From: Atopobium sp. oral taxon 416
GTDB taxonomy: Bacteria > Actinomycetota > Coriobacteriia > Coriobacteriales > Atopobiaceae
Direction: 5' to 3'
Length of the DNA: 64,000 nucleotides
NCBI RefSeq assembly: GCF_018128285.1
Contig: NZ_CP072380.1
Coordinates: forward strand, 1,302,001 to 1,366,000
The notes below the pieces were generated by a model, which had not been told where the DNA came from, made no database searches, and saw nothing but the letters and a program-made list of their open reading frames with translations. Positions 17,739-22,466 of this stretch are shown here, piece by piece (within the stretch, counting starts at the first letter, position 1; every line of letters starts with the position of its first letter). Made by a program: the position numbers and the translations under genes.

Positions 17739-18989
17739 CTATGAGAGCTTCTTGGTGATGTCGGCAATCTGATCATTGAGCTCATTGATGCGGTCCTGCT
17801 TCTCCTGGATCCAGGTTCGCATGTTGACGAGGTAATCCTCGCTGATCGTGTCGTCGTTCATCTGCGCATTGAGATGATCGATCTGTTGCTGCAAGTGGGC
17901 GATCTGGTCTTTACGCCGATCAATCGCGGCTTCGGACCTCTCCTTGCGGATCTTGTTGCGCTCTTCGAAGTATGCCTTCTTCTCAATCCAGAATTTTTCC
18001 TTTGCATCGCGGAAGGCTTCCCACAGCTCGTTGTCGGTATGGGCACCTGCGAAGCCGATCTGCTTCCATTGGATATCGAGGTCACGCATGGTCTGCGTAT
18101 TCTGTGGGCTGAAATCCATCGTGGCGGAGATCGTCTTGGCAGTTTCGATCAGCTTACGCTTTGCCTTCGCATTGTTCTCGTAGACCTGATCGAGTCTCTC
18201 AAAGTGGGCGTGCTGAGCCTCAAAAAAGGCCTGGCGGGAAGCATTGAATGCCTCCCACAGCTTATCGTTATCTTTACGATTCGCCTGCCCGGCAGCCCTC
18301 CACTGTGTCATCAGGTCATGGATCTTGTTAGACTGCTCTCTCCACTGCTGCGTCTTCCAGCTGTCGTTGGGCACAGGCAGATTCTGGATCTCCTTGATAA
18401 GCTCTTCTTTTTTCTCTTTGGCCCGCTCGTGCTCCTGGTTGATCTTCTCAAAGTGGGCGCTGCGTGCGGCAAAGAACTTCTGACGGGAGCCGTTGAAGTC
18501 TGCCCAGAGGCGTTCATTTGCCTCACGTCCAACCGTGCCAACCGCTTTCCACTCATCCATCAACTGGTGGAACCGCTCGCTGGTCTCTTTCCAGTTCTGG
18601 GAGTTAGCGAGGGTTCGCGCTTCCTGGCAGATCTTCTCCTTGGCAGCCTCAGCAGCCTTGCACTCTTTTCCGCACTCGACATAGATTGTATGTCTAAGCT
18701 CCTGGAAAGCGCTCCAGAGCTGATCCTCTTCCGGTATGTGCCAGGTATGGATTGACTTCCATTCGTTCATGGTCGGGTGCAAGAGGGATGAGCCACCGCG
18801 CCAATCCTTTGCGTCGACTGCTTGCTTTAGTTTATTAATAAGGTCCTGTTTATGGTTAAGATCCGCATCCTTCAACGGGTTGGGTGCAGGTTGAGCGGCA
18901 GCGGTTGGCTGTGAGATAGGTTCTGCAGGTGTTTCCTCTCCGGTCGCCTGATCGGCGGTAGCCTCACTTGCATGTTCGGACGAAAGCAT
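17739..18989 (-). CDS. DUF349 repeat protein
   Basis: The protein of about 416 residues is built of four to five repeats of the DUF349 helical unit, each with a W-K-x-x-x-x-R or E-x-W-K pattern such as WRAAGQANRKDNDKLWEAFN and WKAVGTVGREANERLWADF. It is highly charged and predicted to be coiled-coil. The C-terminal 60 residues form a separate coiled coil. The first 60 residues are Ala/Pro/Thr-rich and probably disordered. I choose ATG 18989, preceded by AGGAG, over the ATG 17 codons upstream. The molecular role of DUF349 proteins is not established to my knowledge. Confidence 0.85.
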   Translation of the reverse strand: MLSSEHASEATADQATGEETPAEPISQPTAAAQPAPNPLKDADLNHKQDLINKLKQAVDAKDWRGGSSLLHPTMNEWKSIHTWHIPEEDQLWSAFQELRHTIYVECGKECKAAEAAKEKICQEARTLANSQNWKETSERFHQLMDEWKAVGTVGREANERLWADFNGSRQKFFAARSAHFEKINQEHERAKEKKEELIKEIQNLPVPNDSWKTQQWREQSNKIHDLMTQWRAAGQANRKDNDKLWEAFNASRQAFFEAQHAHFERLDQVYENNAKAKRKLIETAKTISATMDFSPQNTQTMRDLDIQWKQIGFAGAHTDNELWEAFRDAKEKFWIEKKAYFEERNKIRKERSEAAIDRRKDQIAHLQQQIDHLNAQMNDDTISEDYLVNMRTWIQEKQDRINELNDQIADITKKLS

Positions 18990-19274
18990 ACGATCTCCTG
19001 TAGCTTGAAACGCGTACTGATCTTGAGCACAGAATACCACGGAAAGTAGTCTTTATGTGGTCGTGAGCCGTCCGCGTACCGCTTTTCGTAGCAATTATTT
19101 AAGTGAAAGGAAGCTGTCTAATCAGGAACTGACAGGTTTATGGCATAAGCGCGGATTGTACAATGTAGGGACTGCAGGTGCTGATAGGTGCTAGGCGATA
19201 AGGACATACCGTAAGGTTGTGCGATAAGGAGAGCGACTGAGCACATCACGCGCCCTTAAGCGGTTCAGTTTAAT

Positions 19275-19285: not shown

Positions 19286-20313
19286 ACGAGAGTCTACGAG
19301 TTAGGTGATAAAACGTCGAACCATCCGTCTCATGCTACGATATCTGTGCCAAACAGAGCCGCCTGAGAGGCCACCTTCTTCTTTGTTTGGCGACATCCCG
19401 GGAGGTGGCCGCCCAGGCGGGAATCCAGGATGTCGGAGGAGCGCATGGAGCGCGGTTCCCTCGACTTGCGCTTTCTCTTCGACGGCCTGGATGCCGATGG
19501 GCTCGACGAGCTGAGGGACGCAGTCGCCTCGCGGCTGTGCCGCGAGAAGTACGGCGCGGACACGATAGAGGGCCTGCTGGCCAAATGGGGCCATGAGGTC
19601 CGCTGCCCGTCCTGCGGCGCCAGGTTCAGCCTGCTCTCCGGGACCATATTCGCGAACTCGAAGCTGGCGCTGCACAAGATCATGAAGATCGTCGAGATCA
19701 TGTGCTGCAAGGTCTTCTCCACACTCGGCGGTTGGCAGGACTGTGTCATGCTGTCGGGACGTGTGTGAGTCGACGAGATGTACTTCGAGGACATGCGGGC
19801 CGAGCACGAGGATGGAAAGCCCAGGAAAAGGGACTCTCCAAGGACAAGGTTTGCGTCATCGTCGCGATCGACTCATAACAAGCAGGCCCTGGCAATCGTC
19901 AGTGAGAACGGGAAGCCTTCCACCAAGCAGATCAACGAGGCACTCAAGGAGCATATCAGGGAGGGCTCGACCATCGTCCACGACTGCGAGAAGGCCCACA
20001 ATGCGCTCGTCAGAGACCTCAGGCTCGTGGACGAGTGCTACAAGGCCGTCACTACCGACCCCGTCTACCTTCGAGCAGATGGCCCTCGTAAACCACCTGT
20101 GCTTATAGATCCACCGGATATGTCGAGCACTTCGCCTGCATGAAGCTCGAGAGCCTGCAGGCATATCTGGACTGGTTTGTCTACCTGCACCGGGTCCACC
20201 GGGACGAGGGCAGATAGCCTGTGGAGAAAAGGGTCGTCTGCCATCTGGCGCTGTCGAATGGCACGTACCTGCGCAAATGGTGAGAATCAATCACCTAACT
20301 CGTAGACCCTCGT
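19286..20313 (+). mobile_element. Decayed IS1595-type insertion sequence, 1.03 kb
   Basis: The ends are 24-bp inverted repeats with one mismatch, based on GTCTACGAGTTAGGTGAT preceded by ACGAGA (left) or ACGAGG (right, complement). Near-identical 10-bp repeats flank them. The internal gene is a zinc-ribbon DDE transposase on the plus strand, ruined by stops and frameshifts. The right end lies only 17 bp before the first helix of the candidate large RNA at 20331. Confidence 0.85.
19430..20217 (+). pseudogene. IS1595-type transposase, frameshifted
   Basis: The first part (to a TGA at 19766-19768) has the family zinc-ribbon region CPSCGARFSLLSGTIFANS followed by a helical segment. After the stop, the same frame continues with VDEMYFED, which holds the first catalytic acidic residue. 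A shift to another frame gives GLSKDKVCVIVAIDS. A shift back gives TIVHDCEKAHNALVRDL, the region of the second acidic residue. A further shift gives the C-terminal LQAYLDWFVYLHRV. At least one stop and three frameshifts make it non-functional. Confidence 0.85.
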
Positions 20314-20330
20314 AACAAGTAATAAAACGA

Positions 20331-20996
20331 GGCCTTCTACCTAGTACTTTACCGTTGGTCGCCAAAAGACGACCGCTGACCTGAGGTGATGATAATACGG
20401 TAGGACTTGGGTACGCTATAAGCGAAGACAAAAAGCGTCGCAGACAGAGCCAGCGACAGAAACAAGGAGGTGAGTCCGATGGGCATAGATGATTGCTTTA
20501 CGGTACGTCTGCCCGAGGATCACTGATTTATTTGGGTGGGCTCGGTTGTTGCCACCACAAGTTGATTGTCCGAGACAGTTAAAGTCTGGTAGACGATCGA
20601 GCAGATGTAGATTCTTTAAGCCGGGTAAGCTCCGGTATCTCTCAGAAGTAAAAATCACGTGAAGTGTTTGAGATAGAGCATCGGTGACCCGAAGACGGTT
20701 CCAAAGCTTTCAATTGGAGTTCTGAGAGGTAATGTGGGTCGAGAATTTATCTGATATCTGATCTGCTTTGTATTTGCAACGGAGTCGCGTGTTCAGAAAT
20801 GAGTTGAGTCCGTTGGACAGCTAAACGTTGCAAAGGGTTTTGTTCCAGTTGGGACTTTCACACTTCACGAGAAGGTGGAAGAACTAAAGGAGGAGAGTCC
20901 AAAGTATTAGGTAAGGTCTAAGGGAGTGCCCCTAGACGATAGAGATGAGTAAAGGAGAGGCAAGCAGACTTCCGCTGCTTGCCTCTCTTTCTTCTA
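20331..20996 (+). ncRNA. Candidate large structured non-coding RNA (about 570-nt folded core plus terminator)
   Basis: No convincing reading frame exists here, but the sequence folds well. The segment 20340-20350 (CCTAGTACTTT) pairs with 20901-20911 over 11 bp with one G-U, closing a 572-nt domain. GGCCTT at 20331-20336 can extend it with 20913-20918. Immediately inside, 20351-20355 pairs with 20397-20401 around a GGTCG/CGACC hairpin, and GGACTT at 20403-20408 pairs with GAGTCC at 20895-20900. This forms a three-way junction with one unpaired base. Further stems include TGCAACG/CGTTGCA (20775-20781/20826-20832), a GTCC-GTT-GGAC hairpin (20808-20818) and a nine-position hairpin at 20916-20937. 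A strong terminator ends it. The size recalls ROOL- or GOLLD-class RNAs, but I cannot assign a class. It is too long for RNase P RNA or tmRNA. No clear promoter is visible. Confidence 0.65.
20955..20995 (+). terminator. Intrinsic terminator of the large RNA
   Basis: A perfect 13-bp stem (GAGAGGCAAGCAG with its complement) around a seven-base loop is followed by TTTCTTCT. It faces the plus strand and has no coding sequence in front of it, which supports a transcribed RNA upstream. Confidence 0.85.
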
Positions 20997-21010
20997 TCCT
21001 AACAGTCTAG

Positions 21011-21080
21011 GGAAACGATGATTAATTCGGCTCGATGAGGTAGCTGGAGCTGCACGCTGTGTGCTGCCTGCTCAAAATGT
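21011..21080 (+). mobile_element. Truncated left end of an IS5-group element
   Basis: After CTAG at 21007-21010 comes GGAAACGATGATTAAT, the terminal repeat shared with the two 1344-bp copies. Similarity to their left end continues to about 21080, where the sequence jumps into the next transposase relic. Confidence 0.75.
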
Positions 21081-21083
21081 TTG

Positions 21084-21950
21084 ACTCTGTTAGACCACTG
21101 TGGATATGAGGTCATGTCGCCTGCTCCCAGTACTTAAGGAACGCAATCGGCATGCCCACGTAGCCTCTCTGGGTGGTGTGGTAGACACCGTCTCACTTGT
21201 GCCTGTAGATCTGCTCGCGCTTATCGCCGTCCGATTTGCGAAACTGCTCCTTGTAGCAGAACTACTCTGGGTAGTGTTAGAGATGCTTGGTCGAGACCTT
21301 GCGGATGCGATCCATGAAGTGCTTAAGCTGCAAGTGCATGGAGTTGACCTGTGACGTGCGCTGCGCCGAGGTTGACCAGGCCGCTTGCATAGTGGCTCTT
21401 ACCGTCGCGCCGAGCTCGTCTACGCCGTAGACAACGCAGAGCTGTAGGTTAGAGAGCCCCCGCACACAGATGTTGTGGGCACTGCGCTGCTTGAGGGAAC
21501 ACCATCTTGAATGAGCCTGCCCCATCGTGGCTGGCTAGGCTCTTTGTGAAGTGTTTGCCGACGGCGCGCAACAACTTAAGCCTTAACGCTATCGCCTCAC
21601 ATGCGTGCTGGCGCATGAACTAGACGCTGTACAGACACCCGCCGCATCTCTTCTCACACCTGTACAGTGTGAGCCTGCCAGCTAGGCATACACTGCAGAT
21701 CAGAAGTAGGTCACTTCCGACGATTCCTTTGTGATTGTGCCAGGCCATCTGGCAAATGAAGAGGGTACACTGGTGGCGACGCCGGTTGCTCCCGCTTTCC
21801 GCCATGCCACACTGATTGAAATAGATACGGCGGATGGATGAGGTGCCTTCGGAACGGTTACACAGCCTCAAGCCAAGGGAGACTGTGCACATTGAACTTC
21901 GCTACCCCTACCAGCACCTGTAGAGAATAGAGCTGCACATGGGTATGAGT
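21084..21950 (-). pseudogene. IS1595-like transposase relic, minus strand
   Basis: On the minus strand several frames carry pieces of a DDE transposase. They include VVYGVDELGATV, VNSMHLQLKHFMDRIRKVST and KHLQHYPEWFCYKEQFRKSD, which resemble the N-S-x-H-x-x-L-K and S-T-K-x-L-Q end of IS1595-like enzymes. The end next to the IS5 fragment is GACTCTGTTAGACCACTGTG, the same terminal sequence found at 49456. Stops and frameshifts are numerous. The upstream boundary is not visible, so the end is approximate. Confidence 0.6.
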
Positions 21951-21995: not shown

Positions 21996-22466
21996 ATGGA
22001 CGACGATAAGAACTACCAAAACGACGATAGCTACGACGAGGACGACGGTATCTACAGCTATCCTGATGAGGTACAGATAGCAGAAGCCCGTGAGGCGGGA
22101 AACCAGGCGCTTGCAAGCCTTCAGGTGGCGCGCGAGAGCCTTACAAAGGCGAGCGGCTGGGGAATGGTCGATCTCTTCGGCGGTAACATTATCTCTGGAG
22201 CAATGAAGTATGCCCGCATCAACGATGCGAAGAAACAGATTGCGCAGGCCAAGTTGGATGTGCAGGTTCTCTCGGAGAAGCTGGGCAATCTCCCGGGCGT
22301 AGATTCAATCCACCTGAATGTGGACGGGTTCCTCACGTTTGCAGATTTCTTCCTGGATGGTGCAGTCGCGGATATCTTGGTCCAGGCTAAGATTGAACGG
22401 GCGCGGGGCTCGGTGGATACTGCAATCGCTTCAATTAAAGACGCCTTGAATAACCTACCCGCTTAG
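21996..22466 (+). CDS. Conserved hypothetical protein
   Basis: This 156-residue cytoplasmic protein has an acidic, tyrosine-rich N-terminus (residues 1-25) followed by helices. The central segment ASGWGMVDLFGGNIISGAMK resembles a motif I have seen in hypothetical proteins of Firmicutes and Actinobacteria, where W-G-x-x-D-x-x-G-G precedes a helical K-H/Y-x-x-I-x-D-A region. Its function is unknown to me. The stop codon overlaps by a few bases the stop of the convergent lipoprotein gene. It lies beside IS relics, but its base composition is like the core genes. Confidence 0.7.
   Translation: MDDDKNYQNDDSYDEDDGIYSYPDEVQIAEAREAGNQALASLQVARESLTKASGWGMVDLFGGNIISGAMKYARINDAKKQIAQAKLDVQVLSEKLGNLPGVDSIHLNVDGFLTFADFFLDGAVADILVQAKIERARGSVDTAIASIKDALNNLPA

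Follow-up and report, generated by a model that had tools for sequence, protein, structure and literature searches.

The stretch of DNA that was analyzed (64,000 nucleotides of Atopobium sp. oral taxon 416, here called the window) carries, between positions 20331 and 20996, a series of features on the forward strand: an operator-like site, a promoter-like block, a small hairpin (H1), an open reading frame (ORF) of 15 codons behind a Shine-Dalgarno sequence, a long-range helix (P2) with one arm inside this frame, an element near the 3′ end that resembles a translation start site and an intrinsic terminator (Table 1). A first-pass annotation had described the locus as the gene of a structured RNA that carries a terminator of its own, and this was borne out: the 13-bp terminator stem is perfect (20955-20967/20975-20987), relatives keep the gene, and its conservation is not accounted for by a long coding frame or by insertion sequence (IS) DNA. 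The same annotation had stated that the locus lacks an ORF, which is wrong; the ORF listing used had a 60-amino-acid limit, and the 15-codon ORF lies below it. Judged from its sequence, the locus is a free-standing structured RNA gene belonging to a family without a match in Rfam 15.

Table 1. Features of the RNA locus in window coordinates
Feature	Position	Strand	Sequence or form	Remarks
Operator-like site (putative)	20351..20361	+	ACCGTTGGTCG, degenerate form of CCGNNNNCGG	Centre 55 bp before the -10-like element; inexact, 8/10 positions of CCGYYYRYRG by eye
-35-like element (putative)	20390..20395	+	TGATAA	16 bp before the -10-like element; by eye, unscored
GGG and -10-like element	20409..20417	+	GGG + TACGCT	Predicted transcription start near 20424
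Hairpin H1	20437..20457	+	GTCGC/GCGAC	Stems in relatives varied, though paired, by eye
Shine-Dalgarno sequence	20464..20473	+	AAGGAGGTGA	Part of model R2, so present in members partly by selection
15-codon ORF	20479..20526	+	MGIDDCFTVRLPEDH, TGA stop	Open frame behind the Shine-Dalgarno sequence
P2 5′ arm	20504..20512	+	UACGUCUGC	ORF codons 9 to 12; family-level support
P2 3′ arm	20601..20609	+	GCAGAUGUA	74 nt past the stop codon; family-level support
3′ element	20893..20912	+	GAGAGTCCAAAGTATTAGGT	Like a Shine-Dalgarno/start site; matching element in 85/107 members
Intrinsic terminator	20955..20987	+	13-bp perfect stem, T-rich tail after it	Counterpart found by script in 94/108 members

Distribution and genomic context of the family

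When 100 relatives were searched at the nucleotide level, 4 genomes matched, the window's own included. A conserved 46-nt pattern was present in 6 of 140 genomes of the host family, these six being every genome of the window's genus (three) and of a second genus (three). A genome-collection scan with a shorter exact pattern returned 10 stretches. Four were real (an uncultured Olsenella, an uncultured actinobacterium, a Coriobacteriaceae genome, and Parafannyhessea umbonata, which belongs to the Atopobiaceae, Coriobacteriales, Coriobacteriia), and six were rejected as chance on the basis of length and flanks. More distant members were brought in by a covariance model built from the core (R1) and run on 395 genomes of the order. 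Among the 30 genomes matched by R1 at an E value of ≤0.1, L030 to L036, L038, L042, and L048 looked coding or due to chance, and L029 was left out (ACG start, no terminator seen).

A second model (R2), built from ten members found by R1, was applied to genomes of the class with a completeness of at least 85%. It matched 144 of 383 class genomes at an E value of ≤0.01, some of these matches being false, and 124 of 320 among the good ones. Strong matches were confined to two families, that of the window (f1) and f10; those in other families were weak (best E value, 3.2e-5), and some inspected matches were false, including one at 2.9e-9 in f1. The final set comprised 108 members: 92 of 100 fetched loci, which were part of the matches listed at an E value of ≤0.01, plus 16 from earlier searches. 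Eight fetched loci were dropped. Three of them (L152, L153, and L154) contain an ORF that we take to be rubredoxin-like, although R2 scored one of them at 2.9e-9; here, a Shine-Dalgarno/start context near that of the family stands before the presumed rubredoxin-like gene and produced false R2 matches. The others (L171 to L174 and L113) were doubtful; for L113, membership with a shifted start is possible. Since the Shine-Dalgarno site and the initial codons are part of R1 and R2, these features occur in members partly by selection, while ORF length, stop codon, P2, the 3′ element, and the terminator lie outside the search models. Second family copies were seen in all three genomes of genus g30 (L161, L162, and L163), and genome G108 holds two copies 10.7 kb apart (L159 and L160).

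The RNA is not tied to one genomic place. At 29 loci the longest flanking ORFs looked unlike each other, and the neighborhood gave no functional lead. What lies downstream of the terminator differs: an IS1595-like remnant in the window, a same-strand gene at L004 and L016, and opposite-strand ORFs at, e.g., L045 and L156, all four loci being judged by their longest ORFs. An uncharacterized gene follows the RNA in the window (21996-22466, forward strand) and at locus L002 of genome G002 (2258-2686), with 56% identity over 116 residues, and the RNA of Parafannyhessea precedes a different gene. The window gene at 21996-22466 had no Pfam match, and among the window's neighbors Pfam recognized no family except DUF349 (17739-19040). 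Matches to IS1595 transposases on either side of the RNA (19778-20140, forward strand, and 21277-21522, reverse strand) were weak, with E values of 0.006 and 0.009, below the cutoff; they look like transposon debris. The RNA found no match in phages or plasmids and, by exact pattern, none in viral contigs.

This context bears on whether the locus might be a cis-acting leader, in which a leader peptide and an attenuator control the next gene. A translation-coupled attenuator is made up of a short ORF, alternative helices, and a terminator, all of which would be at hand; however, the terminator stands directly behind the RNA, and what comes next differs between the loci inspected. We regard this explanation as very improbable.

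Predicted transcript, 3′ element, and fold

The transcript probably starts near 20424. A GGG[ACT]A block was found at -80 to -45 in 84 of 107 members (19 to 31 in shuffled sequences), mostly 65 to 70 nt ahead of the start codon; the GGGTA of the window lies at -70 by this count. Further upstream, the motif CCGYYYRYRG occurs in 55 of 107 distinct members, compared to 0 to 2 in five shufflings and 0 in a control stretch. The spacings between the two motifs cluster at 43 to 45, 54 to 55, and 64 to 65 bp, about one helical turn apart, and this helical-turn spacing of the operator-like motif suggests a bound activator. We also considered CCGYYYRYRG as a general promoter element and dismissed this idea, the exact form being no commoner than the control in five genomes. 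Contrary to a start near 20424, short blocks upstream of it are conserved in three genus-mates. An inverted repeat of 8 bp (GCTCAGCG/CGCTGAGC) lies upstream at L003, and other inverted repeats are present in the window and at L002. The upstream blocks and repeats could be DNA sites or could be transcribed.

At the other end, a script identified a terminator-like hairpin with a T-rich tail in 94 of 108 members, 84 of which have it 200 to 370 nt after the start codon. Longer start-to-terminator distances (415 to 653 nt) were obtained for the window (511 nt), L002, L003, L004, L010, L016, and L028; those in L093, L107, and L167 are possibly wrong terminator picks. By its predicted ends, the window copy is an enlarged form, of about 570 nt compared to about 300 nt. 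Ahead of the terminator lies the 3′ element, a look-alike of a Shine-Dalgarno/start site with AAG, CCG, or CAC at the place of the start codon. Its form, G.GANUCC(A/G) with AAG, CCG, CAC, or similar, was detected in 85 of 107 members and in 3.5% of shuffled segments; the search did not find it in the other 22 members. At 10 of the 100 fetched loci, R2 scored a second site, weaker than the first. Several copies of the 3′ element are present in each of L003, L004, L010, and L016.

The 3′ element also supplies one side of two helices named in the first-pass annotation, which had proposed an 11-bp closing helix (20340-20350/20901-20911) around a three-way junction. All are present as complementary sequence: the closing helix has 11 pairs with one G-U, and the two inner helices have 5 pairs (20351-20355/20397-20401) and 6 pairs with one G-U (20403-20408/20895-20900). 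The longest helix within 20331-20935, with G-U allowed, measured 13 bp, and 12 shuffled versions gave 11 to 16 bp; thus, because the region is long, the outer helix falls within chance. In a narrower test, in which a partner of the 3′ element was sought within the 138 nt upstream, the window's match was equalled by 2 of 200 and 0 of 100 shuffles. When 77 members, counting the window, were put through this test, each represented by its last 3′ element, no other member reached 2/100 (0 of 76 relatives) and one other reached 5/100; the genus-mates L002 and L003 showed nothing comparable to the outer helix of the window. As a closing stem the outer helix was rejected after 22 loci, of which L003, L116, and L156 had been scored with an element other than the last before the terminator, and again with the 77 members under the stricter choice of element. 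The 5′ arms of the named helices coincide with the operator-like site, the spacer between the -35- and -10-like elements, and DNA further upstream; being at or before the promoter-like block, they are probably not transcribed. The earlier limits of the locus are wrong, with the 5′ arm of the outer helix upstream of the predicted promoter, and the three-way junction, which showed no conservation in relatives, probably lies outside the transcript.

The locus as a whole nonetheless folds more stably than shuffled sequence. A z-score of -4.39 was computed for 20331-20996 (20 shuffles) and one of -3.26 for 20424-20950, the terminator excluded (40 shuffles). It had been suggested that the RNA is either ROOL, GOLLD, or OLE or else a new class. 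At gathering level, Rfam 15 recognized only two tRNAs in the whole window, at 62.3 kb. Up to an E value of 10, the matches of the interval 20200-21100 were all to short families, for the most part microRNA models that hit the terminator palindrome; the best match, also to this palindrome (E value, 0.0016), remained below its cutoff. No Rfam match to ROOL, GOLLD, or OLE was obtained up to an E value of 10 for this interval or for L002 to L004, up to 5 in L028, L029, L037, L039, L043, and L044, or up to 1 in 10 more loci. The locus likewise matches neither RNase P RNA nor transfer-messenger RNA (tmRNA), whose own copies in this genome lie elsewhere on contig C1 (1259378-1259731, 300 bits, and 2773634-2774004, 148 bits, respectively). 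The motifs GAGGUGAGUCC and AUAGAUGA give the core what we took to be an RNase P-like look, an idea that was dropped once the RNase P RNA of the genome had been located. Of the two options, the three known classes thus fell away and a new class stood, in the sense of being new to Rfam 15, but with predicted translation. A purely noncoding ornate RNA, of the kind of ROOL, GOLLD, or OLE and closed by the 20340-20350/20901-20911 helix, would fit the fold z-score and the existence of the named helices as sequence. It conflicts with the lack of an Rfam match to these three classes, the absence of the outer helix from all 76 relatives at 2/100, the conserved ORF, and the lack of matches in the phages, plasmids, and viral contigs searched, and we give it hardly any credence.

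The micro-ORF and its pairing

Every one of the 108 members kept has an open frame behind the Shine-Dalgarno site, with a length of 15 to 26 codons in 107; the exception (L128) is a shifted frame of 32 codons. Start codons are ATG (66), GTG (36), TTG (1), and ACG (5), and stop codons are TAG (71), TAA (25), and TGA (12). The ORF length is kept in the five loci with ACG at the start position (L096, L110, L111, L112, and L165). Predicted peptides include MGIDDCFTVRLPEDH in the window, MGLDECHPVRLPMDL in L004, MGSDECSSARLPEDA in L028, VNTEEIAGFGPADRATEAL in L123, MGTEEIAAFGPASGVPEVV in L088, and MYSEENHMDPAADIARPIFE in L149. Among 106 distinct sequences, the position of the first stop varied with a standard deviation of 2.4 codons in the ORF frame, compared to 21.8 and 25.3 codons in the other frames. 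Codon 4 specifies Glu or Asp in 107 of 108 members (GAA, 59; GAG, 21; GAT, 18; GAC, 9), and codon 3 specifies Ser or Thr in 81, from ACA, AGC, AGT, and TCA. The ratio of nonsynonymous to synonymous changes in frame, calculated from sequence pairs that are not independent, was about 0.42 to 0.61, below that of either other frame in every one of the four length classes; in two classes the shifted-frame ratios came near that of the true frame (0.53 versus 0.48 and 0.61 versus 0.53). By these measures the ORF is under coding constraint. The later residues of the peptide vary strongly, while pairing is kept.

In the best helix between the ORF and downstream sequence, taken as P2, the 3′ arm follows the stop codon at a distance of 59 to 83 nt in 83 of 107 members (19 to 26 of 108 in shuffled sequences). 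Across the family there are 67 different pairs of P2 arms, such as GCGCGCCUGCCC/GGGCAGGCGCGC in L028, GUUUGGACCCGCC/GGCGGGUCCAAAC in L120, and UUCGCGAACGGC/GCCGUUCGCGAA in L163, and the own partner scored above a swapped partner in 86 to 89 of 107 members. Tested individually, the P2 of 62 of 107 members beat 95 of 100 shuffles and that of 45 did not; the window, whose P2 was equalled by 6 of 100 shuffles, is among these 45, and P2 is poorly shown in some genera, including many members of g7 and g9.

The consensus of an alignment of 30 sequences (A12) contains H1, P2, a further helix (P3), two inner hairpins, and the terminator. P2 joins the ORF to a region about 70 nt behind it, and P3 joins the end of the ORF to a nearer region. 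In A12, 12 pairs changed on both sides; there were 48 such cells, compared to 15.2 after shuffling, and none of 500 shuffles reached as high a number. As a control, sliding the partners by 1 to 3 columns left 1 to 7 both-side cells. In an alignment of 18 sequences (A13), both-side changes were found for 16 of 36 pairs. H1 is almost invariant within A12 and offers little information there; by eye, its stem in L045 is UCUCG/CGAGA. According to this covariation, one stretch of the ORF is at the same time an arm of the P2 core helix.

The combination of the two constraints has to be weighed against other explanations. The RNA might be only the mRNA of a small protein, with the peptide as its product and the long structured part controlling translation or protecting the message. 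The conserved ORF length, frame, and residues 3 to 5 would suit this, as would a start codon that adjoins or falls inside predicted pairing; an mRNA would not, however, be expected to have its 15 to 26 codons followed by some 200 to 560 nt of 3′ sequence that is conserved, with the 3′ element in 85 of 107 members, or to retain its pairing when the later residues of the peptide differ strongly. We consider this explanation somewhat unlikely. The opposite extreme, an RNA-only machine with a functionless peptide, in which translation of the ORF serves just as a switch or loading device, draws on the P2 covariation, the ACG start in 5 of 108 members, and the variable peptide tail. Residues 3 to 5, held at the amino acid level across unlike codons, argue against it and make it unlikely.

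Proposed function and known RNAs

We favor neither extreme and propose a translation-gated, dual-function regulatory RNA, a reading to which we assign a probability of about 0.5. The promoter and terminator of the gene would give a structured RNA of about 570 nt, from about 20424 to 20994, and ribosomes would start at the strong Shine-Dalgarno site and translate the 15-codon peptide. Because the ORF portion also forms the 5′ arm of P2 (and, in relatives of the 300-nt type, an arm of P3), the RNA would have two states, one closed without translation and one opened with a ribosome on the ORF. To occupy the ORF, a ribosome has to open P2 (together with P3 in the short type), which is why we read the fold as translation-gated. 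The open or closed state would then decide whether the 3′ half with the 3′ element can bind a target RNA or protein, and the peptide may have a separate role. The structure that is conserved outside the ORF is compatible with the role of a regulator, without being proof of it.

More tentatively, the family may represent an order-wide RNA class in which the same stretch is both a translated micro-ORF and a strand of the core helix of a regulatory RNA. The ribosome would be the switching ligand, and the 3′ copy of a Shine-Dalgarno/start site, where AAG or CAC replaces the start codon, would serve as a built-in decoy or partner site. The RNA would add a widespread family to the Coriobacteriia, and it offers a natural system, with over 100 versions aligned, where the same 15 to 26 codons are subject to both coding and RNA-pairing constraints. 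Whether translation of a micro-ORF gates the folding of its own RNA thus becomes a directly testable question.

The literature searches listed no account of such an RNA from the Coriobacteriia; supplementary tables of surveys lie outside this coverage, and a prior listing there is possible. Of two structured-RNA surveys checked for Collinsella and relatives, one offers only a table row for Collinsella-1, RF01700 (PMC2864571), and the other only a 51-bp candidate upstream of L7/L12 (PMC8040213). Among ornate RNAs, the likeness to ROOL, GOLLD, and OLE lies in size class and elaborate fold; ROOL and GOLLD are located in phages or prophages, often near tRNA islands (PMC12286853). The present RNA differs in lacking a covariance-model match to these classes, in carrying a conserved ORF, and in being absent from the phage, plasmid, and viral collections searched.

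In the leaders and attenuators of amino acid operons, a ribosome on a short ORF decides between RNA folds. The likeness is that here, too, the position of the ribosome on a short ORF would choose between folds; the present RNA, however, ends at its own terminator. Spot 42, which acts by base pairing, is far smaller. In E. coli it also encodes the 15-amino-acid protein SpfP (PMC10339803), so that both RNAs carry a 15-amino-acid coding region. The RNA described here has no Rfam match. SR1 of Bacillus subtilis resembles it in type, being described as a dual-function RNA with a small ORF (PMC8501984). Again, the present RNA is without a sequence match in Rfam. RNAIII of Staphylococcus aureus, about 500 nt long, is structured and free-standing; its fold encloses a small ORF led by a Shine-Dalgarno sequence, and it has its own terminator. 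These three traits are shared with the present RNA, a likeness by description; the difference is that here part of the ORF is, judging from the alignments, an arm of a helix that covaries across the family.
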